From Terasakiella brassicae (GTDB lineage Bacteria > Pseudomonadota > Alphaproteobacteria > Rhodospirillales > Terasakiellaceae): DNA of 64,000 bases. Below the pieces are notes generated by a model, which worked only from the letters and a program-made list of their open reading frames with translations, did not search any database and had not been told where the DNA came from. Position numbers and translations under genes: made by a program. Positions 10,654-64,000 of the stretch are shown here, one piece after another (positions within the stretch are counted from its first letter, which is position 1; the number at the start of each line of letters is the position of its first letter). The stretch covers positions 124,001-188,000 of the forward strand of contig NZ_BMHV01000003.1 in the NCBI RefSeq assembly GCF_014641495.1, given 5' to 3'.

Positions 10654-10665
10654 GTCATCCACCAC

Positions 10666-16653: not shown

Positions 16654-19600
16654 TTAGCTGGCGAGTGTCTGTTCCAGCAAGTTGGCGAGCTCTTCCAGAC
16701 TTTGCTCATTTTCATCACTCATCGTTTCATCACTGAAACGATCGGCCAATAAATCATCTAGTAAATAATCGGCCAGTTTTTCAATGGTGGGATAGAGAAA
16801 AATCAACGTTGCGGGCAAACTACAATCATATGTTTTTTGCAATCGGTTGCGAAATTCAACGGACAACATGGAATCCATCCCCAGATCGGCAAACCCTTGA
16901 TGAAGGCCGGGCCATTTTGATTTTGCCAGTCCAAGGATGGTGGCGACTTGTTTGGTCAGTTGGTCTTGCAAAACGGTTTTACGGCTGTCTGGGGTTGCAT
17001 CGACCAATATTGTCAGCAAGGAAGACCGTGCTTTATCTTCAGGATTGTTTGTTGCGGATTTGGTTGGAAGGACAGGTTCAAAGAGCAAGGCGGTACGGGA
17101 TGGGATTTTATCCGCCCAACGGGCCCAATCCACATCGGCCAATGTGATTTCACAGATATCTTTATCCAGCAAAGCGCCCATTGCATTTAAGGCGGCCTCT
17201 GGATCAATGGGGGAAATCCCGGTTTGTTTGAGCTGATCTTCCACAGCTTCATTTTGTGCAAGATAACCTACATCGGCAATGGCCCCCCAGTTGATGCACA
17301 GGCTGTTTAACCCTTGGGCGTGACGGTTGGAAGATAATCGGCGCAGATAATTGTTGCCTGCCACATAGTTGGCTTGACCGGGATTACCGATCACGGCGGA
17401 GATGGACGAAAACAGGACAAACAGGTCAAGGTCGATATCTTGCGTACAATCGTGCAGATTTTTTGCCCCAATCGCCTTTGTCTTGAAGACTTTTTCAAAA
17501 TCAACAGGTGTCAGTTGATTAAGATATCCATCGGCATAGATATTGGCGGCATGGATGATACCTGCCAAGGGAATGTCAGCCTCGCCTTTGTAAGGGGTGA
17601 TTATATCGCGCAACGCGGCGGCATCGGTTACATCACAGGCTTTGATTTCGACTGTTACGCCCTGATCGTGCAAGTCCTGAATATCTGTTTCTGAAGCTTT
17701 TGGGATCGTTTGACTACGCCCCAGCAAGATCAAATGCCCGGCCCCGTTTGCGGCCATCCATTTGGCGACACTCAAACCAAAACCGCGCACACCACCGGTG
17801 ATTAAATAGGCGGCGTCTTTTTTGAAACGCGTCAATTTAGTATCGGATTGTGTTGTAAAATGAGATGGATTTACAGGGATATAGGTTAAAGAACGTTCTC
17901 TTATTTTATCGAAGTAAGAGGCGGGCATCCCCATCAAATCAATAAAGCGGCCCGCAGGTTTGATCAGATTGATTTGACGTTGGTAATCATGTGCGGGCGT
18001 TGTGTAAACCATCAGATCTACGCCGTTGCTGCCTGTGATTTCCATAATGTGACGTTCAAGGTCGGGGGATGTTGCGCAGAGGGCAAGATCAGCCTGTTCA
18101 AACGTCTTTGGGTCGTAGGTTATGACGATCACTTGTGCACCGGATTTCTGGACGTGCTGACATAATAAGGGCGTGAGGGCACTTTGATCATGCAAAATAA
18201 CCCAATCGCCTTTTTGAAACGGGGGAACCTGTGTCAGGATATGCTGGACGGTCTCTTTGACGTTGATGTCATGGTGGATCGTTTGGTGTGATTTATCCGG
18301 TAAGGTCCTCGGGTCAAGGTGATGGAGCCTTTTGGCGAAAACAGCCGTGCCGTTCAGGGCGATTTCGGGACCAAGGGTGTCTTCTTCCAGAATGTCCAGT
18401 AACGTTGGAATATCGTTTTGATCCTGAAGGTCAACTTGTTGGCAGTTGATATTGGGATATTCATTGGCGATGACACGTCCCATTCCCCATAGCCCGGCAC
18501 TTTCTAAGTTACCGCCACGATAACCTTGGGTGACAAGGCAAATGTGACGGGGGATTTTTTGTTGGCTTCCCAGTGATTGCAGGATACGGAGCAATTCAAG
18601 CTCCGCTTTATCTTGACCACAGAAGATTACCCCCCATTTTTCAGACGTAAAGTCAGGCAGATGATCCCCATCAAATAAAACGGCTTGTGCGCCTTTTTCA
18701 ACGAAACCCGTTTGAATAGCCTGTGCAAAATTATGATTGCCACAGATCAACCAGTTTTGTGTCTGAAATTGGTCTGATCGCTTGGCGGGGAGAGACGTTT
18801 CGTCCCATTGGAAATTATAAAAATCACCTTCAAAATGTTGCAAAGGGTCTTCTTGGAAGGTGCTTAAAGCCTGACAAGTGAAACCGGATAGATGAGCGAG
18901 AATAAGGCCCTGTTCATCGCATAAGGTGATATTGCCTTTAACAAAGCTGTTATCAAACAGGACCAGTTCCGTACAAGCAAACAGACGATGGGGTATTTTA
19001 CCCGTCAGGATTAGGCGATCGAGATGAACGGGTAAATAAAGACCATCCAGCCCGTTTTCATCCAATAAGGACAGAAACGTTTGGAAAGCGCTATCCAGTA
19101 AACTGGGATGCAAGTGATAATCTGCATTGTCCAATTCATCAGGAAGGACCAGTTCCGCCAAGGCACGGGTGGGGTTGAGGTGCAGGTTATCAATCGCCTG
19201 AAAAGCCGGGCCGTAGGTCAATCCCCGGTGCTGAAAGGATTGGTAAAGGTCGTCACGCCCGATTGTTTTTGTGGCTTGGGTACGCCAGTTTTGCAAGTCG
19301 ATGGGGGCAATGTCGGGGTGGAAGGTGTCTGTCAACAGGTACCCACTGGCATGGTTCTGCCAGTGATCTGCGATTTGGGAATGAATATCAAACTGACCTG
19401 TTTTTGGGGCGTAGCTGAATTGTATAGGTGTTGCTTCATCCTTGTTTAGGTATAAGGCTTTTTTAAACGATATATCACTAATCTGGATCGGAAAATCTGT
19501 TGTAGGGGACGCTGCCAATGCCATTTCAAGATAGGCGGCACCGGGGTAGACGATATCTGCGCCCACCTTGTGATCTTGTAAGTAAGTATGGGTTTTCAAA

Positions 19601-22350: not shown

Positions 22351-22380
22351 AGGATTTTTCTCTTTCTTAATCTTATCCGT

Positions 22381-23025
22381 TTATTGGGCGACCATGCGGT
22401 ATTGATCGGGGATGTAACCGTTGTTCAGCGCATATTGGATCAGGCGTTTACCGGGATAGATCACATCAATGGGGGATCGGGCGAGGTCGCAATCTTCAAA
22501 ATGGGTGCAACCCAGAACGAAAGCTTCGGCCTTTAGATGCGCGCTGGTTTCAATCAACTGATGCAGGATATCTTCGACAAAGGGTTCATTGTTTTCGACC
22601 GCCTCGACCAGCGAAACCATTGCATAGGACAAGGTTTTGGTCGTGCGGTTGTTTTGGTCACAGAACAACCGGATATTGTTGATGGTATCTTCAAAACAGG
22701 CCACCACACCGACAGAGGAATATTGCGCGAGGAAATCGTTGTACACGAGGCTGAGACTTAAAATGGGTGTCTGGATTTTGTTGGCGAGACGATCCCAGTC
22801 CACCGCAAAGGAAAGCGTGTTGCAAAAGACAAGAAAGACATCGGCCTGTATGGGGCGCAGTTTTTCCAGAATATAATCATCGATTAAGGGAACACGTGCC
22901 AGAATGTCACGATAATCACTGGGGGAATTGGAAATGGGTAGTCCTCGGGCCGCAATGCCCATGCGTGCCAGCAGGTCCACGCCGATTTGCGCATCACATC
23001 CATCACCGCCGATAACGTAAATCAT
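22381..23025 (-). CDS. Aspartate/glutamate racemase family protein
   Basis: The 214-residue protein carries the two catalytic cysteines of cofactor-independent Asp/Glu racemases: Cys68 in FCNT and Cys173 in LGCTHF. It is somewhat shorter than most relatives (about 230-260). It should interconvert L and D forms of Glu, Asp or a derivative, giving a free D-amino acid. The synthase has its own epimerisation domains, so the product may instead supply the neighbouring GCS2-family ligase. Its ATG overlaps that ligase's TGA by 4 nt. A housekeeping D-Glu role is less likely given its place inside a dedicated operon. Confidence 0.85.
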   Translation of the reverse strand: MIYVIGGDGCDAQIGVDLLARMGIAARGLPISNSPSDYRDILARVPLIDDYILEKLRPIQADVFLVFCNTLSFAVDWDRLANKIQTPILSLSLVYNDFLAQYSSVGVVACFEDTINNIRLFCDQNNRTTKTLSYAMVSLVEAVENNEPFVEDILHQLIETSAHLKAEAFVLGCTHFEDCDLARSPIDVIYPGKRLIQYALNNGYIPDQYRMVAQ

Positions 23026-24239
23026 ATTGTTTCCTCCTTCTGGAAAAGGCCGAGTTCTTTTAATGTGTCGAAGACCAACTTGCTTTTGTCACCCAAGGCG
23101 CCGTTTTGAACGGCAAGGCGGTTTTCGTCTTGTGCCTCTTGCCAGCTGATCAAGGGGCTTATGGTCTGATTAATTTCTTGTGCGCGTTCAACAAGGTTGA
23201 CAAAAACCTGATAGATTTTGCGTAGTTCCATCATGTTTTGCGGGGTGCCGATATGTCGGAGTTCCACATATAACTTGTCTGATTTTTCAATTGCGCGGGT
23301 GATTTTGCCCACATCGCCATCAATGGTTCCGACCCCGGCATCAAAGACCAGTCGGCAATGCCAGAACGGCAGGGACAAGGCATAAAAATTGGCAAGACTG
23401 CCGTTTACATAGGTTTTGTCATAACCGATTTTATCCGTGCGCATCTGCGAGGTTGTCGGAATATGATGAACGCGAAAAGCCGTGGCCCCGTTAAAAACCA
23501 CATCGGACACACGGGGGCGCCCATTTTGTGTATCAAAAAAAGCAAGTTCACCATTTTTTACCGAATTGGACACGATAAAGGCGGGCAGGTCCAACAGGTT
23601 CGCAACATAATCGTCAAGGCTGTTAATTTCGCGCGTTGGCAAGCCTGTGCGTTGTGCGCTGTAAGGGATGGCGTGCAGCCAGTTTTGCAGGCGTGGTGTG
23701 TTTTTGATATCGTGCCCGCCGTAAAGGTGCACAAACAGGGGGGCGGTTAGATAAAGGGTGCGTAAAACAGCCGGAATTTCGGGCGTGGAAATATCAATCG
23801 CGGGCTGAAAGGCCAGTGAATTCATTAAATGCCAATGCCCCCAGTTTTGGTGACGTACGATGCTGTAAAGGCCGGTGGAAACGGTGCGGTTCCAGTATTC
23901 GTCCTCGTTGGGTGGGGCATATTGGGATACCCAATGCAGGCGATATTCCGGCGTTATGGATTCAAAAAAGGCAAGCAGATTTTCCAGATTATCAATGGTC
24001 GCATCCAGATCGCAGAAGGGCAGGCTGACCAGTTCGACAATGGCGCAATTGTTATCCAGAATAAACCAGCCGTTTTTGCCCGAAGCACCAAGGGCCAGCC
24101 CGTTGTAGGGTTCTGTAATGGCGCTGTATCCGGCAGAAACGGCGCGATTAACGATAATGGCCCAGTCTTTTGGGGTGGCGGGTATGTCGTCTTTGGTCAG
24201 GAACAATTCCAGTTCCGCCCCTAACTTTCGCGATTTCAT
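23022..24239 (-). CDS. Glutamate-cysteine ligase-like (GCS2-family) ATP-dependent ligase
   Basis: The 405-residue protein has the signature order of the GCS2 carboxylate-amine ligase family: N-terminal GAELEL (acidic ATP/metal ligands), a central D-N-N-C-A-I-V-E-L-V segment, a WGHWHLMNSLAF-like strand and a late YVELRHIGT segment. Members activate a glutamate-type carboxylate with ATP and couple it to an amine. It overlaps gene G by 4 nt upstream and the racemase by 4 nt downstream. A ligase plus an Asp/Glu racemase suggests formation of a (D-)glutamyl or aspartyl amide that serves as a building block, starter or protecting group. The substrate cannot be read from sequence, and the family call is by motif only. 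Confidence 0.65.
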   Translation of the reverse strand: MKSRKLGAELELFLTKDDIPATPKDWAIIVNRAVSAGYSAITEPYNGLALGASGKNGWFILDNNCAIVELVSLPFCDLDATIDNLENLLAFFESITPEYRLHWVSQYAPPNEDEYWNRTVSTGLYSIVRHQNWGHWHLMNSLAFQPAIDISTPEIPAVLRTLYLTAPLFVHLYGGHDIKNTPRLQNWLHAIPYSAQRTGLPTREINSLDDYVANLLDLPAFIVSNSVKNGELAFFDTQNGRPRVSDVVFNGATAFRVHHIPTTSQMRTDKIGYDKTYVNGSLANFYALSLPFWHCRLVFDAGVGTIDGDVGKITRAIEKSDKLYVELRHIGTPQNMMELRKIYQVFVNLVERAQEINQTISPLISWQEAQDENRLAVQNGALGDKSKLVFDTLKELGLFQKEETI

Positions 24240-27200
24240 GCGAGGTGTCCTTCTTCCTGAACATTATGCGCTGTTGCGGGCAGGCTCAGTCCGTCAATAA
24301 ACCGGTCCAGTTCGTCCTGATTGAAACCGTCATAATCAATGTCGGACGGGGTGAGTTCCCGTTCGGGTTTTTGGTCAATTTCGATGATCAGATGTTGTAG
24401 CTCATCCTTGAAACGATGCAGGAAACCTTCGCTGGTCTGAGAACGATAATGGCGGGTGCTGTAACCAATTTTGATGTTTAGTTTGCCCTTTGTGATCAGG
24501 GCGATCACTTCAATAAGAAAGGGTTGCGGGGCGTTGGGGGAAATATTGGGGGCAACGTCACGGTCTGACAGGCTGAAAAGGCCATTTTCTTCAAATTCAT
24601 CAAATTGACCGAGATAGTTAAAACTGATTTTCGGTGCAGCCGTTAAGGGGTGTTTGGCGAGATAACGTAACAGCCCATAACCCATCCCTTTATGTGGAAT
24701 GTTGCGCAAAACTTCTTTCACTTGTTTTACATTTGTACCCCTGTCCGGGCTGGGTGTTGGCAGCAACACGGGGTACATGCTGGTTAGCCATCCGACATTC
24801 GCGCCGATGTTCAGGCCGTTATCCAGCGCTTCGCGACCATGACTTTCCAGCATAAGGGCGGGTGGGGTTGTATCGGCAAGGGGGCCGAAGGCACGTGATA
24901 GGGCACATAGCAGGAAATCATCTATTCGACTGTTAAACGTTTCGTGGATATCGCCAAGCAGGCGGGCGGTTTGTGTTTCAGACAATGATGTTTCAACGAT
25001 TTGGCAATCCGCGTGGGTGCAGTCATCCTGTTCGAAGTCAGGGATTAACGGGCGATTATGGGCTTGTTGGTCGATTGTTTGCCAATAGGGTAATTGGTCG
25101 ATTGCTGCCTTGCTTGCATAGGTATTGACGGCTTTTGCCCAATGGGAAAAGGAAATTAGGGATGGAGAGAGAGAGGTCGTCAAGTCGTGATAGACCGCTT
25201 CCAATTCTTCAAACAAGGTGCGCCAGGATACGGCATCAATAATCAGGTGATGGGCCGTGATAAACAGATAATCCTTTTCTTCAGCGCGAAACCAACCAAC
25301 CTGAACGCTTGGCCCCATCAGATCGACTTTTTCTTGTAAGGCCTGTGTCGTTGGGTGGTCGGGCGCAGAATCAAAGGATGTAAAACCGAAATCGACAGTC
25401 CCGATATATTGAATGAATTGGTCGCTCTCGCGGCGAAATTTCAGCCGGAAGGCATCGTGATTTCCAAAGACGGTTTGTAAGGATTGCGTAAGGTGTTTTT
25501 CATCTAATCGGGATTTTGAAGTTAATAAAACGGATTGGTTGAAATGGTGCTGCGGGTCTGGATAGGTTTCAAAAAACCAGTGTTGAATGGCGGTCAGCGG
25601 GACCGTATCCCCTGTTTTTAAGGCAGCTAAGGTCTGTTGTTGTTCTTCAATTTTGCACAGTTTTTGAGCAAGTTCTGCAATAATAGGATGATTAAACAGG
25701 TCGCGTACATCCAGTTTATAGTGTCTTTGATGTAAATGTGCGACAATTTGCAAGGCTTTGATGGAATCACCACCCAGATAAAAGAAATTATCGGTGATGG
25801 AAACCTGATCACGGCCCAAAATATCGCATAACATATCGCAAAGAAGGCGCTGTTCTTCTGTTTGTGGGGCGCTAAACGCAGTTGTTGTATGGACCGCCTC
25901 TGCATCCATATGGGCCAAGGCTTTGCGATCAACCTTGCCGCTTTTGTTGACGGGTAACTCTTTTAAATGAAAGAATTGTGCCGGGATCATATAATCGGTA
26001 ATGCGGGTCTTTAAGTGACCATGAAGTTCTGCAATATCGGGTGTGTGATCCATTTCAACAAAGGCATGAAGTTCCTGCCCGTTTGCGCCCATGTCTTTGG
26101 CAATGACGCAGGCTTTTTTAACACCGTCACAGGTCGCCAAATTGGCTTCGATATCGCCCAGTTCAATGCGGTAGCCACGAATTTTAACCTGATCGTCATT
26201 ACGTCGAACAAAAACAATATTGCCGTCTTTTAAGCGATGGCAGATATCGCCGGTCCGATACATAAACTGATGGACGGACGCATCGTCAGGATGGGCAAAC
26301 GGGTTGGGGATACGAACTGCGCGCGTGCGTGTATCCAGATTGACATAACCGCGAAACAAGGCACTGCCACTGATATGTAGTTCCCCATCGACCCCGCAAG
26401 GAACAGGGTTACCCCCGGGATCAAGGATATAGGCACGACAATCCCCAAGAACAGTGCCGATGGGGACTGAGGCGGTGCGATTATTGATGATATAATCTTG
26501 CGATTGCGTGAAGGCCAGAACATCGACACAACATTCCGTTGGACCATAAATATTGGTGATATCGATGGATGTACCTTTCAGGCGTTGGGCCTGATGTTGG
26601 GGCAATGCCTCCCCGCCGATCAACAGGTGGTGCAGGGCTAAATCGTCAGCTTCGCCAAGGCCCGCATCCAGCATGATATTGAGCAACGTTGGTGTGCCAT
26701 CGCTGAACTGGATCTGATGATCTTTCAGGAACGTCAGAAGGCGGTGACCATCCTGTTTGTTTTCCCTATCACACAGATGCAGGCTATGACCTTGCAGCAA
26801 GGCACCAAAGACCTGTTGAACGGAGGCATCAAAGACCAAAGCCGCCATCAAGGCCACATTCATATGCTCAGGCAAGTCGTGATAAATGCGTTCCTGTAAC
26901 CCTTGTACAAGGTCGATGACGCTTTGATGTTCAATCATCACCCCTTTTGGGGTTCCGGTCGACCCGGACGTATAGATGATATAGGCCAATTGATCGGACT
27001 GAAGGGCACGTTTTGGGTTTGTTTCAGCCTGCTGGTCGATTTGGGGCTGTGCCTCTGTTAAGGAAATCCAGTGCAGGTCCTCGCCCAAATCGCTTTCACT
27101 GTCTGCGCTTAAAACAAAACGGGCGTTGGCATCGGTGAGGATATAGCGCAATCGATCAACGGGTTGGGTGGTATCCAGCGGTAAATAACAGCCGCCCGCC

Positions 27201-28999: not shown

Positions 29000-29000
29000 A

Positions 29001-34655: not shown

Positions 34656-34660
34656 GTGTT

Positions 34661-37600: not shown

Positions 37601-38110
37601 TAGACATTCAGTTTCAATGGTTTGCTGAATATGAGCCTCGCGCGTGTCTATATCCATTGCGCTTAGATCGGATTTTTCCAGAACAAGGGATAGATCAGCA
37701 TGAATTTTTTGAACGGGGTTTGCGTCTTTCAAGGGGAAACTGGTGCGTAAAATTTCATGGCGACGCACGATTTCGTTTAAGCTGCGTTCCAATGCGTTTA
37801 TGTTAAGCGCCCCCTTTAGACGCAGGGCAGCGGGCATGTTATAGGCGGGACTGTCTTTTTCCAGTTGATCGACAAACCACAGACGTTGTTGGGCAAAAGA
37901 CAGGGGCAGGTCTTGATCCCGTGGTGTTGTGGTGATCGTTTGATGGTTCAGAAAATGCGCAAGCAATTCTTCTTTGCGTTGGGAAAGTTGGGCACTGAGT
38001 TCCTGTGTCATTACGCCTTTGGGGGCGTTGATGCGCAGTTTGTCATTTTCGCAGGAAAGGCGGATATCTTGATTTTCCAGCTCTTTCAACCAGTTTATCA
38101 GGTTTGTCAC
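34661..38110 (-). CDS. NRPS E (docking-C-A-T), substrate unassigned
   Basis: The 1149-residue module has a TubC-like docking domain (about 1-55, RINAPKGVMTQ), an LCL-type C domain (MHHIVSDGW near 199), an A domain (about 500-1000, YTSGSTGKPKG near 684) and a T domain (VGGYS, Ser near 1074), with a basic C-terminal tail. The pocket by alignment reads DLWNIGFVWK. It partly resembles codes recalled for Cys (DLYNLSLIWK) and Thr (DFWNIGMVHK), so no substrate is called. The start codon is GTG at 38108-38110, overlapping the TGA of D by 4 nt. Its docking domain is the expected partner of the EEFVL tail of D, and its carrier feeds the KS of F, giving a gamma-amino-beta-hydroxy acid. Confidence 0.93.
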   Translation of the reverse strand: MTNLINWLKELENQDIRLSCENDKLRINAPKGVMTQELSAQLSQRKEELLAHFLNHQTITTTPRDQDLPLSFAQQRLWFVDQLEKDSPAYNMPAALRLKGALNINALERSLNEIVRRHEILRTSFPLKDANPVQKIHADLSLVLEKSDLSAMDIDTREAHIQQTIETECLNPFDLQTAPLIRGQLLKVSGEEHILLLSMHHIVSDGWSIGIIGRELSVLYKAFSNNKSADLPELDIQYGDFSQWQKSWMEGTDYRQQLDYWTTHLKDAPHILDLPTDYARPALQTYHGKTHTTYLSGNVQKTLHQIAREAGGTLFMPLLAAFALHIRSYSAQNDLIIGSPIANRNRPEVEDLIGFFANTLPLRLQINTTETFTDLLKQVQRETLKAYENQDVPFEKIVENLNIERDLSRSPLAQVVFVLQNAPLHASGSTTAALDGLTLEPIAFESGTVRLDLEVHVWEERSGLKVEYIYNTDLFAPETIARMAANFEAVLLSVCAKHDTPLCHIHTLSDTEFKQLVTDANATSQPYPDDLCLHDVIAQHAQNTPDTPALVYDGHSLSYKELNERANQLAYWLSARGVCKGDRVGVCLDRGLDLIVSLLAILKTGAAYVPIDPIYPRERLKFLMEDSDATLLLCESKVAQDIKLEEITLNAPCYLLDHEHNLIKQESLKNISISVSSRDLAYVIYTSGSTGKPKGVQIQHHSVINLLHGVHPRLKASAKDVWTVFHSYAFDLSVWEIWSPLYSGGKLVIVSNTLTQDAHNFHQLLLDEKVTVLNQTPSFMRQLLSLPDFKEGAAQTLRVIICGGEALPQELGEQLLKLNIDLWNFYGPTEATVWSLIKQVHSASSPSGNVAIGQPIANTTALILDSDLNPVPIGAVGELHLGGQGLAVGYFKRPDLSHERFINSPFGRLYKTGDLVRRLPNGDFDYIARMDTQVKMRGYRIELGEIEQTLSKMNGLDHNVVIVREDQPGDQRLCAYLVGNLPPIHEIREFLKARLPAYMVPLIFVELDQLPLTPNGKIDRKNLPKPEKNQRLIQTAPSTQTLNADEQAIHQIWCEELGLKQVGIDDNFFDVGGYSFLLVKVCNRLRAAFQRDINVVDLFQYPTIRAIADFIDTDQTEREINTDQLEQRATKRRQGRVRRGRTMQTEQKV

Positions 38111-49863: not shown

Positions 49864-49872
49864 GGTTTATGC

Positions 49873-52800: not shown

Positions 52801-53178
52801 CTTCAAAAGGAAATCACGAAAGCTTTCTGTCTCGTCGATTTGGTGGCGAATGGCCAGCATGTTGTCATTCGTCGGTGTCGCTGGTTTGCGGGTCGGGGTA
52901 CCAATGGTGATGGTTGGCAAATGATTATATTTATGCAGGCAGATCATCAGGGCGGAAAGTAAAACGGTGCCGCACAAAAAGGGTCCTTGTGCGATTTTTT
53001 TAATCTGTTGTGTCAGGCCTTGATCCAGTGTGAAGGTGATATGCGCTGGGCTGGAACCATTTTGGGCAAAGACAGGACTGTCCGCCTTTGGGGCGCAGAA
53101 AATGGGGCCTTCAGCCAACAAGTCCATCCAGAACTGTTTTTCGTCCAAGGTCTTTCGATCGAAAATCATGGTGTTCAT
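49873..53178 (-). CDS. NRPS C (truncated C-A-T-TE), aromatic-like pocket
   Basis: The 1101-residue terminal-type module begins with only the C-terminal lobe of a condensation domain (about 1-230); the HHxxxDG lobe is absent. The A domain (about 250-740, YTSGSTGNPKG near 402) has a pocket reading DASTIAGVCK, close to DASTVAAVCK recalled for Tyr, so Tyr or Phe is likely. T follows (SGGHS near 784), then a type I thioesterase (about 835-1101) with Ser near 918 in GWSGG and His near 1080 in GNHN. It is the only cis thioesterase in the cluster, so product release probably occurs here although the gene is mid-operon. It starts 15 nt after the radical SAM gene and ends 9 nt before D. Without a full C domain it might instead be an initiation or stand-alone unit. 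Confidence 0.93.
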   Translation of the reverse strand: MNTMIFDRKTLDEKQFWMDLLAEGPIFCAPKADSPVFAQNGSSPAHITFTLDQGLTQQIKKIAQGPFLCGTVLLSALMICLHKYNHLPTITIGTPTRKPATPTNDNMLAIRHQIDETESFRDFLLKLREKLLNCYAHQNYPQSKLVEDLSLETDRLFDVSFAYDEIHSSFTHPDQSALSLKVEEGENATLIATFFYDNTLYRPETVQLLARYYQHILTQALSDPMQSIDTLALDTQENIWAQTEVWNNTAHDFPDDINVMELLTNMAQTYPQNPALVYRKTSISYEEMMQQVDTIAAHLQENAVGPEQLVGVCLENPFQSILAFLGILRSGAAFLPLDPNYPDDRLSYMIKDSACTLVIGDNVISERMINPDLPILSMDALCSPMTKPAAPNTSTADNLAYVIYTSGSTGNPKGALLEHRGLCNFIHAQGRLFDMTPNSRVLQFASLSFDASISEIFVTLCHGAALHVATRADMSPVDPLLNLLQTQKITHLTVPPSLLGVLPQTDLPDLGCLIVAGESCPDDIAQKWSVGRTFLNGYGPTESTVCATFSHYAGTGKPLIGKPIENTKVHILDEHMRPVPVGVAGELYIESAGLARGYLNRDDLTQEKFLTNPFSPVFSNRIYRTGDLARWQTHGEVEFLGRMDHQIKLRGFRIELDEIAHVLCRHQQVENAIVISHDDDKAGLQILAFVLASSLETDDLRRFILNKLPEYMCPAHISILDDFPKLPNGKINRKALVDLQRAPSHLPERHMARDNIELALLQIWQEVLNNSDLGIHDDFFASGGHSLLAVRLLSRIERAFNQKLDLDLIFQHTSVADFAQRLRQNKDLKEKWSPLIPVRPAPNSQKNPIYCVHPAGGRVLCYLPFARELAQDIPVHGFQARGLSPHQSPFKDLKECTQTYVDALKQHQGEGPYQLLGWSGGAVIAYEMACILQKEGAEVSNLFLIDAYAPPALPNELKNMDNAALVKALLSDELRDTTSDQLRQFSENKLIDYLRDTLIKADIIPADYTYDDVARFFEVYKTNCALAHATLSPSFNGSIHLIRAEGEQSMQEKYCPDDPTLGWQSFATGDIKVHITPGNHNTMMEPPFVSALVSHLSDYLD

Positions 53179-53193
53179 GGTGTCTTTCCCCTC

Positions 53194-54900
53194 CTAAAAA
53201 GCAAAGGCTTCAAGTTGATCGTCATTGTGTAACGCGGTGTCGGTTTGCGGTGTGCGGGGATCATAAAGCGGGGGATGGTTGTTCATGCCCCTTAAATGAT
53301 CAAAGCCATCGCGCCGCCCCCAATAGGACAGGTTTTTTAAAATCTGTTCGGATGGTTCTTGTTGATGCGGGATCAAGAGTTTTTCGCGAATACCATCGTT
53401 AAAGGCACGCAGGAAGCCTTTAATCTGTTCACGAGAAAACCCGTTTCGTTGCAGGTAGAACAGGCTCCACATTTCAAACCCCTGTTGCGGGAGCCAAATG
53501 GAATTTTGGACTTCCAGAAACATCTGTTCGACAAAGGCCGTGGCCTGCTGGCAATTCATGGTGTTGTGCGACCAATTGAACGCAAAGTTTTCGATACCCA
53601 GTTCCTCTTTTTGTTTCCAAACAGGGGTGATGGGGTCGCAGAACCACAATTGGGCGCGGTAAAAATCGCTTTTACTTTCTTCCAGAAACGACATGCTTTC
53701 AGCAACCGTGTCCGGGGTCTCGCCGGGGAAACCGATGATGAGGTTGCAATGGGTCAATATGTCACGTTCGCGAAACATTTTAATCGCGCTCAGGTAATCT
53801 TTGCGCCGCGATTTCTTGTTCATTTTTTCAAGAATGGTGTCACTGCCGGACTCAACGCCCAGAAAGACCCCTTCGCATCCGGCGCGCTGCATCAAGTCAA
53901 TGGTGGCTTCGTCGCCATGATCGGATCGGTAAAAGGAATTCCATTTAAATCCGTACCCTTTGTCGATCATCAATTGCATGATGTCTCGAAATCGTTTTTT
54001 AGGCACGTTGAAGGTATCGTCCAAAAAGGTCAGGGTGTTGACGGTTCCTAAGTCCTTGATGCTGTCTAGCGTACGTTCCACATGGGCGAGATCAAGATAG
54101 GTATATTTGCCCGCCCGATCAGGAAAACCACAAAAGGCACAGGAAAACGGGCAGGATTTTGCGGTGCGAAGGGAAAGGAATTGACCGAATTTTTCTTTCG
54201 CAAACAGGCTGTAATCCACCGGGTTTTCTTCCAGTGAATTACGCTCAACCGATATTGTGTTGTGAACAAATGTGTCTTTCTGGCGGTAGGCGATATTATC
54301 AATGTCAGCCAAATCTTTTTGGGTCTTTAACGCATCCAACAAATCACAGAGGGCTTTTTCCCCTTCGGAAGAAATGACGTAATAATCACCACCTAAATAG
54401 GAAAACAACTCGCTTAAACCATCCGTGTCCAACATGGCGGCCTGACTAGAAATAAACGGTCCGCCGATGACGATTTCTACATCTGTGTTATGGGCGCGGA
54501 TAAACTGGACAATTTCAATAATCGGCTGGGGGACGACATAAAGCGTTGTGGTAATGGCGACCGTGCGAATACCGCCTTTTTCCAGTTTATCGCGTAAAGC
54601 GTCTTTTTCTTGCTGGAACAGGTTGATGTAATCAAAAGTAAACCCGTTCTTTGCCAGATAACTGCCCAGACACAAGACAACAGGCCAGACGAAATCACTG
54701 TTGTGATAGGTTCTGGGTTCCCATCCATTCACATGGTTCAAGATATCCATTGCATGATGGGGGTGTCCTTGCATATTCAGGAAGGCAAGATTGATATCGC
54801 GATAACCGCCCGATGTCGGGTCGTTGCCACGGATCATATCCACCGTTTTTTCAAAATCGAAATCGTTGAAGCCGATGATTAAGCAATCTGTATGCATCAT
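53194..54900 (-). CDS. Cobalamin-binding radical SAM enzyme (PhpK-like methyltransferase family)
   Basis: About 568 residues with an N-terminal cobalamin-binding-like Rossmann region (about 5-170, opening CLIIGFNDFDF, then VIGGPF) and a radical SAM barrel with CPFSCAFC (Cys250, Cys254, Cys257, the Fe-S cluster ligands). B12-dependent radical SAM enzymes of this layout often methylate unactivated carbon or phosphorus; the N-terminus resembles the PhpK P-methyltransferase group. No canonical DxHxxG cobalamin ligand is evident, as in several class B enzymes. The frame opens at 55002 inside gene B, but the conserved N-terminus begins at the ATG at 54900, 19 nt after the stop of B, so that start is used. 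Inside an NRPS operon it probably methylates a residue or precursor; the target is unknown. Confidence 0.82.
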   Translation of the reverse strand: MMHTDCLIIGFNDFDFEKTVDMIRGNDPTSGGYRDINLAFLNMQGHPHHAMDILNHVNGWEPRTYHNSDFVWPVVLCLGSYLAKNGFTFDYINLFQQEKDALRDKLEKGGIRTVAITTTLYVVPQPIIEIVQFIRAHNTDVEIVIGGPFISSQAAMLDTDGLSELFSYLGGDYYVISSEGEKALCDLLDALKTQKDLADIDNIAYRQKDTFVHNTISVERNSLEENPVDYSLFAKEKFGQFLSLRTAKSCPFSCAFCGFPDRAGKYTYLDLAHVERTLDSIKDLGTVNTLTFLDDTFNVPKKRFRDIMQLMIDKGYGFKWNSFYRSDHGDEATIDLMQRAGCEGVFLGVESGSDTILEKMNKKSRRKDYLSAIKMFRERDILTHCNLIIGFPGETPDTVAESMSFLEESKSDFYRAQLWFCDPITPVWKQKEELGIENFAFNWSHNTMNCQQATAFVEQMFLEVQNSIWLPQQGFEMWSLFYLQRNGFSREQIKGFLRAFNDGIREKLLIPHQQEPSEQILKNLSYWGRRDGFDHLRGMNNHPPLYDPRTPQTDTALHNDDQLEAFAF

Positions 54901-54919
54901 AAATCCAAACCGTTTTGTC

Positions 54920-57900
54920 CTATTGGGCCGCGTGGCGGCGTTTTGATCGGGTGATGGTTGGGCGGATGGGGGCAGATGTTTCTTGTTGTTGAAGGTCATC
55001 AATCACATGCGCAAGGCGGGCAATGGTCGGGTTGTCGAACAGGCTGTGAAAGGGCAGCTCAAGGGCCATTTTATTGCGAATGCGCGACATAATGCGTGTT
55101 GCGCTTAGGGAATGTCCGCCAATATTGAAGAAATTGTCATCCATTCCGATCTGTTGGCTTTCCAGAACATCCTGCCAAATTTCCTGAAGGGTGCATTCTG
55201 TCTCGGTCGCCGGGGCGCGGTAAGCTTGCGTGATTATGTGCGCCTGATTTTGTTGCGCCAATGCTTTGCGGTCGACTTTTCCGCGCTCACTCAGCGGCAG
55301 CTTGTCCAACGGGGTAAGGCGTTGCGGCACCATGTAGGATGGAACCAGACGGGCAAGGGCGGATTTGAGATCGGTTTCACTTGTTTTGGCTGCGGATAGG
55401 TAAAAACCGACAAGCTGGTCGTGATCATCAAGAATGACGATTGCCCGGTCAATGTCGGGATGGTTTTCCAGTTTGTTTTCAATTTCGCCCAGTTCCACAC
55501 GGTAGCCGCGCACCTGAACCTGATCATCATTGCGCCCGATAAAATGCAAGTCGCCTTGTTCATCCCAATAGGCAAGATCCCCGGTTTTATAAAGGCGTGC
55601 ACCGGGCTGAAACGGATGGGGGATGAATTTTTCACGGGTTAAGTCGTCTTGTTTCCAATATCCCCGGGCAAGGCCAATGCCGCCCAGATAAATTTCGCCT
55701 TCAATGCCGATGGGCACCGGGCGTAAGTCTTGATCCAGCAGATAGACCTGAACATTATCAATGGGCTGTCCGATGGTGATTTGGGTATCAGGGTGGACCC
55801 GTGTTGAGGTCGCCACCACACTGCATTCTGTGGGGCCGTAATTGTTATAGATTTCCAGATCGCCAGCCCTGATATCCTTTAAGACATCCCCACCGGTCAA
55901 AATTTTGATTTTAGGGGATAGCTTGCCGTCATGCGTTTTGCTGACGTCTTCGCATATGGCAGGCGGCAGGAAGGTATGGCTGATGTCATTTTCCTGTAAA
56001 AAGGTAATTAATTTTTCCACATCCAGTCGCACAGGGTCGGGGACCGGGTATAGACAGAGACCATTGAGCAAATTGGGCACCATTTCCCAAAGTGATGCAT
56101 CAAAGGCAGGGGAGGCATAAAGCGTTGCCCGACTGCCGGTTGCCAATTGAAAGGCCTGTTCATGCCAGTTGACGAGATTAAGCAATCCGGCTTCTTCGAC
56201 CATGGCGCCTTTGGGTTGCCCGGTGGAACCGGACGTGTAGGTCATATAGGCAAGGCCGTTGGTTTGCACAGGCGTAAAGTGCGTGATATCGCCCTCCCAT
56301 TTTTGATCCAGATTGCAAACAGGTGTTGCGGTTGTGATCTTTTCAAGGTTTTGGGTGTTGGATAAAACGCATAGGGCCTCGCTGTCTTTCAGGATATAGT
56401 CCATGCGCGCCTGCGGTGTCTCGGGATCCAAGGGGACATAGACACCGCCTGCCTTGAGAATACTTAAGAAGCTGCAAACCAGTGAAGCGGAACGTTCTAA
56501 AAGAACGCCCACATGCGGATTACCCGTTACGGCGAAATTTTTTTGCAAATGATGGGCCAGTGCATCGCTGCGTTGATCCAGTTCACGGTAGGTCAAACGG
56601 GTTGGACCATCAACGATGGCCGGGGCGTTGGGTGCGCGTTCCACCTGTTGTTTAAAACGTTCAATAACAGATAGGCGAGATGGGGCCGTTTGGGGGTGAT
56701 GATTAAAACCTTTTAAAATCAATTCGCGTTCTTGTGGTCCTAAAATATCAATGTCGCGGATTGTTTTTTCAGGTGTGGCTAGAATTTGATGTAAAACCTG
56801 TTCAAAATGCCCGGCCATGCGTTGCATTTGTGCAGGGCTAAATCGGTTTGTGTTATAGGAAAATTCAGCACTCAGGCAGGTTCCGGGATTGAAGGCGAGG
56901 GTGAAATCATAATGGGTATGTTCGTGACGGATGAGACGCTCAACCGTCAGGCCATAGGCATCCTTTTCCATGTTTTCCTGAAAACCTTCATCGATATGAA
57001 AGTTTTCAAAAGCAAAAAGATGATCCGGTTTTTGCGTATCATTCAGGATATCATTGAGGGCGAGATATTGATGTGGGTCAACACAAAGGGCCTCGTCCTG
57101 CAATTGGGACAGCAGGTCACAAAAACGCATATCCTCGGCTATCTGGACCCGTACCGGAATGGTGTTGATAAACAGTCCCACCATATCTTTAATGTTGGGC
57201 ACGTCATGGGGGCGCACGGTGACGACACTGGCAAACAGGATGTCGTTCCTCCCCTTGTAACGGGCCAGCATTACCCCCCAAATGGCCCGGCATAAAATCG
57301 CAGGTGTGACACGTAATTTTTGTGTGAGGGTCTGTAGGGCACCCGTGGTTTCTTCACTTAATTGCAACAGATGTTTTGCAGGGCAGTAGCCAGCTTTATT
57401 ACGTTGAAAAGGCAGATGTGTTGCAGAGGTCCCTTTTAGATATTTCGCCCAGAAATCGAGTGAAGATTGCGTGTCACGGTGATGCAGCCAATTAAAATAG
57501 GGTTTGGAAGAAACCGGTGGTGTCAGGTCCGGGCGTTCACCACGCACGTTGGCGCTGTATATTTCCATTAGTTCCTGCAATAAAATTGCGCTGCTCCATC
57601 CGTCCAGCAGGATATGATGATGGGTCCTTATGATCTCGTGACGCTGTGTGTCCAGTTTTACGATACACAGACGGGCGAGTTGTCCGGCATGGGGTGTAAA
57701 GGGCTTTTCACGGTTTTCTTGACGCAGTTGATCTAGGGTTGCGTCTTGTTCCGGTCTATTCAGGTTGCTGAGATCAATAAAACGGGTGTCAGCGCGAACC
57801 TTCTTGAGAACAATTTGGCAGGGTTGTTTGGTTTTTTCATATTCAAAGGCAGTGCGCAAAATATCGTGACGGTCCACAAGGTCCTGCCAGCTTTTTAAAA

Positions 57901-58045
57901 ACAGATCAGGGGCAAACGAACCTGTGACAAGATAGGAAAACTGTTCAACATAGGTGCTTTGGTCATCCCCGAATAAGGCATGAAACAGCATGCCTTCCTG
58001 CAATGGGGTTAGGGGATAGATATCTTGGAGATCTTCTTTCTTCAT
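54920..58045 (-). CDS. NRPS B (C-A-T), Leu-like pocket
   Basis: The 1041-residue module has a C domain beginning with the YPLTPLQEGMLFH pattern of domains that take D-configured donors (catalytic HHHILLDGW near 140), an A domain (about 450-930, YTSGSTGQPKG near 602) and a T domain (IGGHS near 977), then a basic tail. The pocket reads DAWFLGNVVK, identical to a leucine signature I recall. With no epimerisation domain, L-Leu is expected. The N-terminus (KKEDLQDIYPL) looks like an acceptor communication segment, matching the E-domain terminus of A. The frame opens with TTG at 58051, overlapping the stop of A, but the ATG at 58045 lies 2 nt beyond that TGA and is preferred. Confidence 0.94.
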   Translation of the reverse strand: MKKEDLQDIYPLTPLQEGMLFHALFGDDQSTYVEQFSYLVTGSFAPDLFLKSWQDLVDRHDILRTAFEYEKTKQPCQIVLKKVRADTRFIDLSNLNRPEQDATLDQLRQENREKPFTPHAGQLARLCIVKLDTQRHEIIRTHHHILLDGWSSAILLQELMEIYSANVRGERPDLTPPVSSKPYFNWLHHRDTQSSLDFWAKYLKGTSATHLPFQRNKAGYCPAKHLLQLSEETTGALQTLTQKLRVTPAILCRAIWGVMLARYKGRNDILFASVVTVRPHDVPNIKDMVGLFINTIPVRVQIAEDMRFCDLLSQLQDEALCVDPHQYLALNDILNDTQKPDHLFAFENFHIDEGFQENMEKDAYGLTVERLIRHEHTHYDFTLAFNPGTCLSAEFSYNTNRFSPAQMQRMAGHFEQVLHQILATPEKTIRDIDILGPQERELILKGFNHHPQTAPSRLSVIERFKQQVERAPNAPAIVDGPTRLTYRELDQRSDALAHHLQKNFAVTGNPHVGVLLERSASLVCSFLSILKAGGVYVPLDPETPQARMDYILKDSEALCVLSNTQNLEKITTATPVCNLDQKWEGDITHFTPVQTNGLAYMTYTSGSTGQPKGAMVEEAGLLNLVNWHEQAFQLATGSRATLYASPAFDASLWEMVPNLLNGLCLYPVPDPVRLDVEKLITFLQENDISHTFLPPAICEDVSKTHDGKLSPKIKILTGGDVLKDIRAGDLEIYNNYGPTECSVVATSTRVHPDTQITIGQPIDNVQVYLLDQDLRPVPIGIEGEIYLGGIGLARGYWKQDDLTREKFIPHPFQPGARLYKTGDLAYWDEQGDLHFIGRNDDQVQVRGYRVELGEIENKLENHPDIDRAIVILDDHDQLVGFYLSAAKTSETDLKSALARLVPSYMVPQRLTPLDKLPLSERGKVDRKALAQQNQAHIITQAYRAPATETECTLQEIWQDVLESQQIGMDDNFFNIGGHSLSATRIMSRIRNKMALELPFHSLFDNPTIARLAHVIDDLQQQETSAPIRPTITRSKRRHAAQ

Positions 58046-58047
58046 GC

Positions 58048-61000
58048 TCAAAACAGGCTTTCAAATTCATCAAGGCTGAGGGTGGACAGGGTTAAATCGG
58101 CTGGCGTCAGTTCGGATGTGTCGCGTGCGCTGCAAAACGCGATGAGTTTGTTCATTTCTTCATGCAGGGTGTGCAGTAGGTCTTCCATCGTGCTTTTCAA
58201 ATAGCGATGGCGGCTGTAGGACAGGGTAATTTCCAGCCTGTCATCCATGACGATGGCCGCAATGTCCAAATTGCTGGTGCGTTTGGCGCTGGGGGCAATG
58301 GCGGTGCCTGTATTGTCCGTTGAAATATCGAACAAAGGCGTGTTCTGTGCGTTTTTAAAATGGCCGAGGTAATTAAACGTGATGTGGCAACGTTGATCAA
58401 AGGCGGGGTCAAGACCTAAGCCGTCTTTGGACAGGTAACTCAACACGCCATATCCAAACCCTTTGTTGGGGATTTGTCGCAGGTTTTCCTTGATGGTTTT
58501 GATCTGTTGGTCGGTTTTCGTTATGTGTGACAGATCCAGTAAAACCGGATAAAGCGAAGTAAACCAACCCAGCGTTCGACTGACATCACTGTTTTTAAGG
58601 GCAGGGGAACGACCATGCCCTTCCAGCATGACAATGGTTTTTTCCAGTCCTTTCCAGTTTTTTAAGGCACGCGCCAAGGCAACCAGCAGAATTTCTTCTG
58701 CGCTGGTGTGAAAGGCGTTATTGACCTCCCCCATCAAGGTGTGCGTGTCTTTGGGGGTTAAGCTGACGGTGCAACTTTCCAAATCGCACAGGCGATTATG
58801 CGGTGAGGGGATTTCAACGGGGAAGGGACAAACATCGGCCTGCCGGATGCGTTTCCAATAGGGAATTTCCTTTTTTAAATCGTCACTTTGCGCATATTGG
58901 ACAAGGGCATTTCCCCAATGTTTCAGGGAATGGGTTTTGCGTGGCAAGTTAATAGCTTGTTTGGCGGTTATGTTACGGTAGGCCTGCGTTAAATCTTCCA
59001 ACAAAATACGCCAGGACACACCGTCAATAATCAGGTGATGGACAACCAGCAATATATGGTCCTGTTTTGCGCCTTGCAGGAGAATGGCTTTGGCCAAGGG
59101 ACCGTTGGTTAAATCAAGTCCGGTATGGGCCTGATTGGCCTGACGCAGAATTTGGCGATTTTCATCGCGTTTCCTGTCTAATTGTATCGCCTGAAATTTA
59201 AAACCGTTTGTTGTCTCACAAAATTCCTGATGCCAAACACCATCCGGGGTTTGATGGAATTTCAGGCGAAAAGCATCATGTTGCTGAACAAGAACATGAA
59301 TGGCCTGTTCCATTGCAGACACATCCAGTCGTTCATGGGCGTGAAGTAACAGGGCATGGTTAAACCAGTTGGGATTGGTTGAAAATTTGTCAAAGAAACG
59401 GTGCTGAACCGGGCCAAGCACGGCTTCCCCCGTGATATCGTCTTCTTCCACGAAATGATCCTGCGTGATAAAGGGAGCAAGCTTGGCAACGCTTGGATTA
59501 TCAAACAGGTCTTTGATCTGAAGGCTTAATCCTGATTTATAAAGCTGGGACAATAACTGAATAGCGCGGATGGAATCACCACCCAGTTCAAAATAATCAT
59601 GATGAATGCCGATATCGCTGCGCCCGAAAACATGTTGCCATGCCTCAAGGAGGATTTTCTCGGTTGGTGTCGTTGGGGGTGTTGCTGCAATTTTGTTTGA
59701 TTGTTCGTCAACTTCAACAATTTCAAGCAAGGCTTTACGATCAATTTTGCCGGAAACCAACCGGGGCATGTTTTGCAATAAAGCATAACGGCTGGGTACC
59801 ATATGGGCAGGCAAGCTTGCCGATAAATCTTGGCGTAAATCGTCAAGGTTAATCTGGTCGTGGGTAACGAGGCAGGCCTTTAAATAGGTATGCCCGGTGT
59901 GGTCCTGTGCCGCAATGACACAGGCTTCTTTGATCTGCGCATACCGATTGAGCCTGTCTTCAATTTCGCTTGGCTCAATACGGTAGCCCATAATCTTGAC
60001 CTGTTGGTCATTGCGGCCCAGAAACTCGACATGTCCATCGGATCTAAAACGGGCCAGATCCCCTGTTTTGTAGATACGTTTGTCAGGGGTTGTCGGATGT
60101 GGAATGAATTTTTCATCATTCAGGGCATCATTGTTTAAATAACCACGGGCGACACCCGGTCCACCGATACACAATTCCCCAATGCCACCAAGGGGAACGG
60201 GATGTCCTTGCGGGCTTAAAATAAAGATTTCCGCATTCCCTAACGGTTTACCGATGGGGACATGGGCCGTATCGGTTGTCAGGGGGGCAGAGGTGGTAAA
60301 GCTGAGGGCGTTAACGCAACATTCCGTTGGACCATAAAGGTTGGAAACCGTGCAGTTTTGCACCACTTTATTGGCAAGGGAAACGGGCAAGGCTTCCCCG
60401 CCGAAAATCATGTGGCTGAGTTGTTTTGTCAGGGTGTCCAGTTCGCCCGCTTCGTCCAGCAAGGCCAGAAAGTTGGGAATGCAGCCCCCGATATCAATCT
60501 TGTATGTTTGGCAGAATTGACGGAACTTGCGGGTATCGCGCTTGCTGTCATCATCCATAATGAACAGGCTATGTCCGTAGAGAAGGGCGGAGAAAATCTG
60601 TTGCACCGACCCGTCAAACACATAGGTGGTTAAAAGCACCATATTGAGGGGGCGTTGATGACGTTGATAGACATCGTGGTTCATGGCATGGGCCAGATGA
60701 ACAACGCTGCCCTGTTCAATCATCACCCCTTTGGGTGTGCCGGTGGTGCCGGATGTGTAAATCACATAGGCGAGATCGTCAGCTTTGCTTTCAATCTGTT
60801 GGAAGGCCAAATCGGGAAGGGTTGTGATTTCAAGACAAGGCTTTGTTGTAAGTTCGCATGCCTTCGATTGTGTCTGTGGATCAACAAGGATGGCTTGTGC
60901 CTGACTGTCTTTTAAAATGAAATCAATGCGTTCTGTTGGAAAGTCCGGTTCAATGGGAACGTAAGCGGCCCGGGCCTTAAGCACGCCTAAAATCGCAAGG

Positions 61001-62598
61001 ACACACCAATGGCTGCGTGTCAGCATCAAGGCGACCCGATCATCGGGCGACAGGTTGACGCTTTGTCGTAAATGGGCGGCAATTCGATCAGATTGCAAAT
61101 CGACCTCTGCATAGGTCAGGCTGATGTGTTCAAACGACAGGCAGGTCCTCGTCGGGTGGGCATTGACCTGTTTCTTGAACAACTCAATGAGGGTTTCATC
61201 CTGTTCGTAATGTAAGGGGGTGCCTCGCGAGAAGCTTTTTAGCTGCGCTTTTTCTGTATCCGATAACAGATCAATATCGCATATTCGAACCTCCTCCCCT
61301 TGTCTTATGAATTCTGATAGGGCGCGTTGAAAATGTTTAGCGAGACGATGCAAGTCTGCGTCATCATAAAGGGCTGAATTGTAGCCGATTTTAACTTTCA
61401 AACGATCTTGATCGGGCAGAAGGCGCACGCCCAGATCAAAATGAGTTTTCTCCCACGTTTGCAGTTGGGTGACGGCAAAGTCGGTGCCGGGGAGTAGGGT
61501 GTTGAGTTCAAACACACGATCCAGAGGATAATTTTCCATGACGAACAAGGATCCGATCAAGCGATCCTTTAAGGGGGTGGTTGATTGAATATCAGCCAAG
61601 GCAATATGTTGGTGAGGCTCCGATGCCAACGCATTGTGCTGAACTTGCGAAAACAGATCGCAAAGACGCATATCGGGGGTGAACTGAATACGCACCGGGA
61701 TTGTATTAATGAAAATGCCCGCCATTTTTTCAATGCCGTCGATTTCATGCGGGCGACCGGAGACCACGCAGCCGAAAACAATATCGTCAGATTGGGTTTG
61801 CTGAGCCAGTAAAAGCCCCCAAAGGCTTTGAAAAAGGCTGTTCAGGGTGATGTTTTGATCGTTTGCCAGTTTATTCAGGCTATCCAATTGATCTGGTCCG
61901 ACATCAAAATAAACGGCCTTGGGTTCGCTTGCGGTTTTAGGGGTCGCACGCTGGGGTGGGGTTGATTGGGTCTCAAAACCAGCCAGATAGGTTTGCCAGT
62001 ATTGCATGGAGGCCGTTTGATTTTGGGCGTCACGCCACTTTATATATTTTGAAAAACCAACCGGTTGTTCATAGGGCAGAGGCTTCTTGTTAATTTGTGC
62101 AATATATATATCCAGTGCTTCTTTAACCAGATTCCCCAATGACCAGCCATCCATAATGATATGGTGGTGGGTGAGGATAACTTCGAAGCTGTCATTGCTC
62201 AATTGCAGGACACGCAAACGCAGCAGCATGTCATCTTCAAGATGAAAAGGGGTATGCTTTTCCTGTTCCTGAAATGTGTGAACGGCTTGTTCTTTGTCTT
62301 CGCTGTTAAGGTGGCGGTAATCGATAACTTGGAAATCAAGAGGGCGCTTGTCTGCGACAACCTGCAAGGGGGTTGGTGTATTTTGAAAGACAAAATTCGT
62401 GCGCAAGATGTCATGGCGATTTACCAGCCTTTGCCATGCTTCTTTGAAAGCCGATACATCAAAATATCCCTGAAGGCGCCATGATATTTGCTGAAGGTAA
62501 GATTGTTTGTCGTCACCTTTCAGGTAGTGGAAAAACAGCCCTGCCTGCATGGGGGACAGTTTGTAGATATTGGCGATGTTGTTCTTGGCTGGCTTCAT
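58048..62598 (-). CDS. NRPS A (C-A-T-E), substrate unassigned
   Basis: The 1516-residue module has a C domain of the D-donor type (YKLSPMQAGLFFH, HHHIIMDGW near 144), an A domain (about 460-950, YTSGTTGTPKG near 614), a T domain (LGGDS near 1007) and an E domain (about 1050-1500: HHLIIDG near 1186, EGHGR, GWFTSLYP). The pocket by alignment reads DGQGIGLVNK, which I cannot assign; the Gln at position 239 and the paired Cys at 328-329 are shared with G, hinting at a related polar substrate. The C-terminus (TPADLTLSTLSLDEFESLF) resembles a donor communication domain for B. Although first in the operon, its C domain expects a D-aminoacyl donor, which only G can offer. The ATG is the first codon after the promoter region. 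Confidence 0.94.
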   Translation of the reverse strand: MKPAKNNIANIYKLSPMQAGLFFHYLKGDDKQSYLQQISWRLQGYFDVSAFKEAWQRLVNRHDILRTNFVFQNTPTPLQVVADKRPLDFQVIDYRHLNSEDKEQAVHTFQEQEKHTPFHLEDDMLLRLRVLQLSNDSFEVILTHHHIIMDGWSLGNLVKEALDIYIAQINKKPLPYEQPVGFSKYIKWRDAQNQTASMQYWQTYLAGFETQSTPPQRATPKTASEPKAVYFDVGPDQLDSLNKLANDQNITLNSLFQSLWGLLLAQQTQSDDIVFGCVVSGRPHEIDGIEKMAGIFINTIPVRIQFTPDMRLCDLFSQVQHNALASEPHQHIALADIQSTTPLKDRLIGSLFVMENYPLDRVFELNTLLPGTDFAVTQLQTWEKTHFDLGVRLLPDQDRLKVKIGYNSALYDDADLHRLAKHFQRALSEFIRQGEEVRICDIDLLSDTEKAQLKSFSRGTPLHYEQDETLIELFKKQVNAHPTRTCLSFEHISLTYAEVDLQSDRIAAHLRQSVNLSPDDRVALMLTRSHWCVLAILGVLKARAAYVPIEPDFPTERIDFILKDSQAQAILVDPQTQSKACELTTKPCLEITTLPDLAFQQIESKADDLAYVIYTSGTTGTPKGVMIEQGSVVHLAHAMNHDVYQRHQRPLNMVLLTTYVFDGSVQQIFSALLYGHSLFIMDDDSKRDTRKFRQFCQTYKIDIGGCIPNFLALLDEAGELDTLTKQLSHMIFGGEALPVSLANKVVQNCTVSNLYGPTECCVNALSFTTSAPLTTDTAHVPIGKPLGNAEIFILSPQGHPVPLGGIGELCIGGPGVARGYLNNDALNDEKFIPHPTTPDKRIYKTGDLARFRSDGHVEFLGRNDQQVKIMGYRIEPSEIEDRLNRYAQIKEACVIAAQDHTGHTYLKACLVTHDQINLDDLRQDLSASLPAHMVPSRYALLQNMPRLVSGKIDRKALLEIVEVDEQSNKIAATPPTTPTEKILLEAWQHVFGRSDIGIHHDYFELGGDSIRAIQLLSQLYKSGLSLQIKDLFDNPSVAKLAPFITQDHFVEEDDITGEAVLGPVQHRFFDKFSTNPNWFNHALLLHAHERLDVSAMEQAIHVLVQQHDAFRLKFHQTPDGVWHQEFCETTNGFKFQAIQLDRKRDENRQILRQANQAHTGLDLTNGPLAKAILLQGAKQDHILLVVHHLIIDGVSWRILLEDLTQAYRNITAKQAINLPRKTHSLKHWGNALVQYAQSDDLKKEIPYWKRIRQADVCPFPVEIPSPHNRLCDLESCTVSLTPKDTHTLMGEVNNAFHTSAEEILLVALARALKNWKGLEKTIVMLEGHGRSPALKNSDVSRTLGWFTSLYPVLLDLSHITKTDQQIKTIKENLRQIPNKGFGYGVLSYLSKDGLGLDPAFDQRCHITFNYLGHFKNAQNTPLFDISTDNTGTAIAPSAKRTSNLDIAAIVMDDRLEITLSYSRHRYLKSTMEDLLHTLHEEMNKLIAFCSARDTSELTPADLTLSTLSLDEFESLF

Positions 62599-63148: not shown

Positions 63149-63179
63149 TCGTCTTTTACATTTACCAAAGGTGACCAAA

Positions 63180-63944: not shown

Positions 63945-64000
63945 ATCTAATCATAAAACGCAAACGGTCAACTGTTTGCGATTGCATAGGTGTGTCCAAT

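Follow-up and report, generated by a model that had tools for sequence, protein, structure and literature searches.

A predicted working order, unlike gene order, for a nine-protein PKS-NRPS line in Terasakiella brassicae

Results

Organization of the PKS-NRPS line

The window, a stretch of 64,000 nucleotides from Terasakiella brassicae, carries on its minus strand eight megasynthase genes (A to H), together with two small genes and one for a radical SAM protein, and on its plus strand the start of a further synthetase gene, I. The nine synthetase proteins very probably form a single PKS-NRPS line, for which domain content and comparison with a related cluster predict the working order H > D > E > F > G > A > B > I > C. 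In the proposed line, H and the first module of D would make the polyketide start, and D, E and F would supply, in turn, amino acid, ketide, amino acid and C-methylated ketide units. G and A would each add one residue and epimerise it. Four further residues would come from B, I (two) and C, and the thioesterase (TE) of C would release the product. The last module would be divided: I would contribute its C-terminal domain as the condensation (C) domain, and protein C the A-T-TE portion. The genes and domains concerned are the following.

4514-7749, minus strand: two ABC exporters, scoring above the TIGR01194 cut-off (cyclic-peptide exporter family)
7898-8683, plus strand: free thioesterase (PF00975), presumably type II
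8680-9429, plus strand: phosphopantetheinyl transferase
9340-10665, minus strand: diaminobutyrate-2-oxoglutarate transaminase
16654-22350, minus strand: protein H, KS-AT-DH-KR-T; proposed first subunit
22381-23025, minus strand: Asp/Glu-racemase-like protein within the operon, scoring under the Pfam and NCBIfam cut-offs
23022-24239, minus strand: 405-aa protein within the operon, without significant Pfam or NCBIfam match
24236-29041, minus strand: protein G, TubC_N-C(not DCL)-A-T-E; code DAQDLGIVDK
29001-34655, minus strand: protein F, KS-AT-MT-KR-T
34661-38110, minus strand: protein E, TubC_N-C(not DCL)-A-T; code DLWNIGFVWK
38107-49863, minus strand: protein D, N-terminal helix (by eye)-KS-(AT absent)-DH-KR-T-C-A-T-KS-AT-KR-T; code DIWEMTADDK
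49873-53178, minus strand: protein C, half C-A-T-TE; code DASTIAGVCK
49888-50637, minus strand: terminal thioesterase of protein C, GWSGG
52462-53172, minus strand: half condensation domain of protein C, model positions 191-448 of 453; HHxxxD absent
53194-55002, minus strand: radical SAM methyltransferase, TIGR04479 (PhpK) subfamily
54920-58051, minus strand: protein B, C(DCL)-A-T; code DAWFLGNVVK (Leu)
58048-62598, minus strand: protein A, C-A-T-E; code DGQGIGLVNK
58105-59427, minus strand: epimerisation domain of protein A
61240-62574, minus strand: condensation domain of protein A, D-accepting (DCL) class
63990-64000, plus strand: start of protein I, 2568 aa, C-A-T-C-A-T-C; the gene continues past the window (contig C3, 187990-195696)

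The carrier after the first KR of D was matched by Pfam, not by the analysis's own model. Among the neighbouring genes, the diaminobutyrate transaminase gene adjoins those of the phosphopantetheinyl transferase and the free TE; its product may supply a Dab-using module, possibly that of D.

Epimerisation domains and condensation-domain class

The sequence-only reading had placed epimerisation (E) domains in A and G only, and the ends of these two proteins match TIGR01720 at 135.1 and 133.2 bits, respectively, above the curated cut-off of 74.2. The terminal C domain of protein I gave no TIGR01720 match. An N-terminal condensation motif that the same reading had confined to A and B was, written as a regular expression, found in exactly these two of the eight full C domains of the cluster, those of protein I included. 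Among reference domains the motif is present in 22 of 23 directly after an E domain, 4 of 26 after a carrier, none of 21 first in their frame and neither of two others.

The references comprise 20 regions from 16 genomes, hand-picked from 48 E-domain places in 25 other genomes, and were labelled by the preceding domain in the frame (23 after E, 26 after a carrier, 21 first, 2 after C). Some of the first-in-frame domains stem from frames cut by the edge of a stretch, and matches of at most 330 residues were left out. In a tree of 87 C domains (quick method, LG+G4; one identical row and the E domains omitted), where the references are mutually related and class reflects domain context, not biochemistry, a 31-row clade with SH-aLRT 96 unites the first C domains of A and B, their two Hahella orthologs, all 23 C-after-E references and 4 of the 26 C-after-T references. 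The six other full C domains of the cluster and six of Hahella lie outside it. This placement assigns both of these C domains, of A and of B, to the D-accepting (DCL) class, as had been proposed from the letters. Both domains contain HHxxxDG and lack the Dual E/C motif HH[I/L]xxxxGD, as given in PMC1894796, so their donor should already be D-configured. The Dual motif is present in one of the four C-after-T references within the clade.

The domain classes bear directly on plain collinearity, in which the proteins would work in gene order from A to H. Operon order is the one point in its favour; A would need a preceding donor of a D-residue, the TE of C would act in mid-line and H would be left without release, and we give this order next to no credence. 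The TE of C is, as the earlier reading held, the only one in cis: it is the sole in-line TE of the cluster, and the free TE at 7898-8683 is separate.

A cluster in Hahella sp. HN01 with genes in the predicted working order

A scan of genome contigs with six exact peptide patterns, the reach of which is limited to close relatives, yielded one relative of the radical SAM protein, in Hahella sp. HN01 (52% identity). The cluster around it occupies one strand, at 24894-77267 of the 112468-base contig NZ_JAHMIN010000025.1. Its first gene encodes a 3651-aa protein, AMP-ligase-like-KS-AT-DH-KR-T(weak)-C-A-T, followed by KS-AT-KR-T, TubC(weak)-C-A-T, KS-AT-MT-KR-T and TubC(weak)-C-A-T-E. Further along are C-A-T-E, C-A-T, C-A-T-C-A-T-C, the radical SAM gene and half C-A-T-TE, with a TauD gene downstream. 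Expressed in Terasakiella proteins, this is D (two genes)-E-F-G-A-B-I-radical SAM-C, and the domain string equals that of Terasakiella, taken in working order, from the DH-KR of D onward. Collinearity of D, E, F and G, claimed previously, is thus matched by orthologs in that order on one strand.

The two clusters share this domain string and a radical SAM gene adjoining the half-C/TE subunit. They differ in that the Hahella genes follow the working order on one strand, an AMP-ligase-like start stands in place of H, D is spread over two genes, the AT of the first module is kept, a TauD gene lies downstream, and D and A bear codes that we take to be Gln-type.

Reciprocal best hits connect D, E, F, G, A, B, I, C and the radical SAM protein with Hahella, the synthetase orthologs at 32-41% identity. 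The bit-score margin over the second-best match is narrow, at 1.15 for E and 1.17 for B; the margin of 1.09 for D is over the other Hahella gene, which matches the second half of D. Starred support in the domain trees joins I_C3, D_C1, the epimerisation domain of G, the adenylation domains of I2 and B and the second KR piece of F to their Hahella counterparts. Elsewhere the partners are not the orthologs: A_C1 joins B_C1 and hA_C1 joins hB_C1, the A domains of proteins A and G join each other, and I_C2 stands with G_C1; the remaining pairings lack resolution. The proposed orthology is thus based on whole-protein matches and synteny rather than on every domain.

Side by side with these correspondences, the racemase-like and 405-aa proteins (22381-24239) have no BLASTP match at E 1e-10 among frames of at least 120 aa at 8001-102000 of the Hahella contig.

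Screening of subunit orders

All 362,880 orders of the nine proteins were screened. Strict rules on KS type, D- or L-accepting C domains, TubC_N docking and the free C domain leave two orders, H>D>E>F>G>A>B>I>C and H>D>G>A>B>F>E>I>C, and looser rules leave 36. The Hahella gene order leads us to choose the first.

The second order differs in that the carrier tails of D and F would dock to G and E, the reverse of the preferred pairing. It satisfies every strict rule, and docking features permit the exchange: the C-terminal tails of D (EREEFVL) and F (EMEEGVL) are both acidic, and TubC_N stands at the N-terminus of both E and G. Against it, the Hahella orthologs of E, F, G, A, B and I lie in this sequence on one strand, and the tail EM[E/D]EGVL is common to F and its ortholog, the latter directly ahead of the G ortholog. 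The exchange is accordingly improbable, and we infer docking of D to E and of F to G.

The sequence-only reading had arrived at H>D>E>F>G>A>B>C. Its rotation, with D-E-F-G ahead of A-B-C, agrees with C-domain class and with Hahella; its direct step from B to C gives way to one through I. That order had also been called the one fitting everything, a claim that went too far, as the swapped order satisfies the same rules and is opposed by synteny only. For the eight proteins of that reading, the strict rules likewise leave two orders.

Protein I and the divided last module

Condensation-family matches number 11 in the whole genome, and all lie at C3:148341-195612, three of them in protein I; no more than one such match occurs in any of the five other genomes of the genus. 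With all 11 in this region, protein I is either part of the cluster or an orphan beside it. It contains only C, A and T domains, with no TE seen. Among the subunits, I alone ends in a free, intact C domain, and every NRPS subunit except protein C has a catalytic C domain; both statements hold equally in Hahella. In protein C, the C-domain match starts only at model position 191 of 453 and lacks HHxxxD; the Hahella ortholog is truncated in the same way. Gene C begins 15 bases past the radical SAM gene, and the genome-wide condensation search found no further C fragment near this start. The layout of a polymyxin-type split last module, a free C domain ending one subunit and A-T-TE on another, is present in both clusters. 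Given the half C domain without HHxxxDG on protein C and the free intact one ending I, protein I is placed between B and C; to judge from these domains, the final peptide bond would most likely be formed by the terminal C domain of I acting on protein C.

Alternatively, I could be a separate synthetase, with B passing its chain straight to C. The gene of I lies beside A on the plus strand with two small frames in between, and its codon usage is set apart from that of A to H (0.101 versus 0.05-0.07). Strand can, however, account for the codon-usage difference: third-position GC skew is negative in A to H and two other minus-strand genes and positive in I and six other plus-strand genes, so that I follows the plus-strand pattern. 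This suggests that I has kept its current orientation for a long time. A separate I would, moreover, leave protein C without a catalytic C domain and I itself, with C, A and T domains only, without a TE, and the Hahella ortholog of I lies between those of B and C. A separate I therefore seems most unlikely, and we retain I between B and C.

The C-terminal tail EEF[S/D]F is common to I and its Hahella ortholog. Speculatively, the half C domain of protein C could be a docking device, retained after the loss of catalysis, that holds this tail; such recognition might have allowed the operon to rotate and a gene to flip without a change in working order.

Between A and I, a DUF697 gene (63171-63869) has a 33% homolog at 23474-24013 of the Hahella contig, which precedes that cluster by 0.9 kb and is encoded on the other strand, and no match in the five other genomes of the genus. 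It is perhaps linked to the cluster. Separately, two other NRPS frames from Pseudomonadota have C as their last recognised domain, followed by about 360 aa without match, and in one case the next frame begins with a partial C domain (model positions 134-458 of 464). Such a split may exist elsewhere too.

The front of the line

Protein H is placed first by elimination, as it has no Hahella ortholog and the first Hahella PKS module resembles module 1 of D more closely than H, in both DH and KR. Module 1 of D (45690-49770) consists of KS followed by DH-KR-T and has no AT match, whereas its Hahella counterpart has an AT; the stretches flanking the missing AT appear joined. It is an AT-less module in an otherwise cis-AT line. 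The AT activity would have to come from H, from F, from the second module of D or from the one AT that the genome encodes outside the cluster.

In the KS tree, the first KS of D groups with the KS of H and of the first Hahella module, not with KS domains that follow NRPS carriers, and should therefore accept an ACP-bound acyl group. The KS of F groups with KS domains downstream of NRPS carriers. The ACP of H is the only carrier in the cluster without another assignment. H as an ordinary first module fits both the KS grouping and the unassigned ACP. H could instead synthesise the starter iteratively or serve mainly as AT donor for module 1 of D, with the core order kept, a reading compatible with the preferred one from D to C. 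It would suit the absence of a Hahella ortholog, the AT-less module 1 of D, and the start in Hahella, where an AMP-ligase-like domain and a carrier recognised by eye only precede the D1-like module. We consider it the less probable reading, though one of some weight, and continue with H as first subunit.

Adenylation codes

Ten-position codes were extracted with numbering checked against 1amu. In Hahella, the codes corresponding to those listed above are DAQDLGVVDK for each of D, G and A, DFWNCGFVWK for E, DAWFVGNVCK for B and DASTVAAVCK for C. The first module of I has DFWNIGMVHK in Terasakiella and DLFNNALTYK in Hahella, and the second (I2) has DVQFIAHVVK in both. At E, G, B, I2 and C the two clusters differ by at most two of the ten positions; the codes at D, A and I1 diverge. 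The A domain of protein A groups with Gln-type A domains. The code of G is taken as Gln-like and that of C as Tyr-like, and the Pro and Ala readings are likewise assumed. The residues of I are predicted to be a Thr-Pro pair, which would stand between a Leu-like (B) and a Tyr-like (C) residue. The chain would end, after a D-Gln-like residue from G and a D-residue from A, in Leu, Thr, Pro and Tyr. A literature search for DIWELTADDK, a code close to that of D, gave no match. Leu and Thr codes appear, minus the last one or two positions, in PMC7253712 and PMC3708778.

Relation to known synthetases

In the polymyxin synthetase, as described in PMC3708778, the modules run pmxE-pmxA-pmxB and are not collinear with the product, and PmxB (1102 aa) holds 'the remaining part' of a divided last module, A-T-TE. 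Gene order unlike working order and a divided last module are therefore common to both systems, but the polymyxin system consists of NRPS modules only, has a starter C domain and is encoded by three synthetase genes, whereas nine PKS/NRPS subunits on two strands are involved here. The N-terminus of the thermoactinoamide synthetase ThdA likewise carries a truncated C domain, described in PMC7253712 as probably inactive; there it is located on a starter module, while the half C domain of Terasakiella is on the last. Other split or trans-complemented modules are described in the review PMC8949500, which deals with exceptions. Rotated order and a divided last module are already known from polymyxin; what is new is this cluster, its nine-part scrambled layout and its collinear partner.

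A product prediction from gene order would go wrong twice here, through the rotation and through the subunit on the opposite strand. The scrambled cluster and its counterpart in working order form a natural test of docking versus gene order as the determinant, and the pair yields a concrete predicted residue order. Among the papers listed, titles and abstract openings gave no described product of the cluster.

The radical SAM methyltransferase

The radical SAM protein matches TIGR04479 (PhpK) at 687.1 bits, above the cut-off of 600, and its ortholog adjoins the protein C gene in Hahella too. P-methylation was set aside as unlikely: EDKxxxxxNS, which we take to be the PEP mutase motif of C-P bond formation, is present in neither of the two PF13714 proteins of the genome (assembly 99.7% complete). 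The cluster's enzyme shares its family with PhpK-type methyltransferases but occurs in a genome whose two PF13714 proteins lack this motif, and it probably performs C-methylation.

Searches with the protein in 385 genomes of the class (E up to 1e-60) and with the family model in 398 genomes of the phylum (E up to 1e-100) returned only the protein's own match, and 95 genomes of Hahella's order returned only Hahella. In 100 genomes of the order, three proteins at 31-34% identity were found besides its own, and in 369 genomes of Hahella's class, one protein under the family cut-off besides Hahella's. Within 15-20 kb of these four other matches, none of the C, E, A, T, KS, AT, TE and MT models matched at E 1e-5. 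Plasmids gave 148 records matching the radical SAM protein, none over 80% of its length and with 21-25% identity among the matches listed. For protein C, the best of 2837 plasmid matches are NRPS modules at about 35%, mostly cyanobacterial. Both clusters thus keep a rare PhpK-subfamily radical SAM protein next to their half-C/TE gene.
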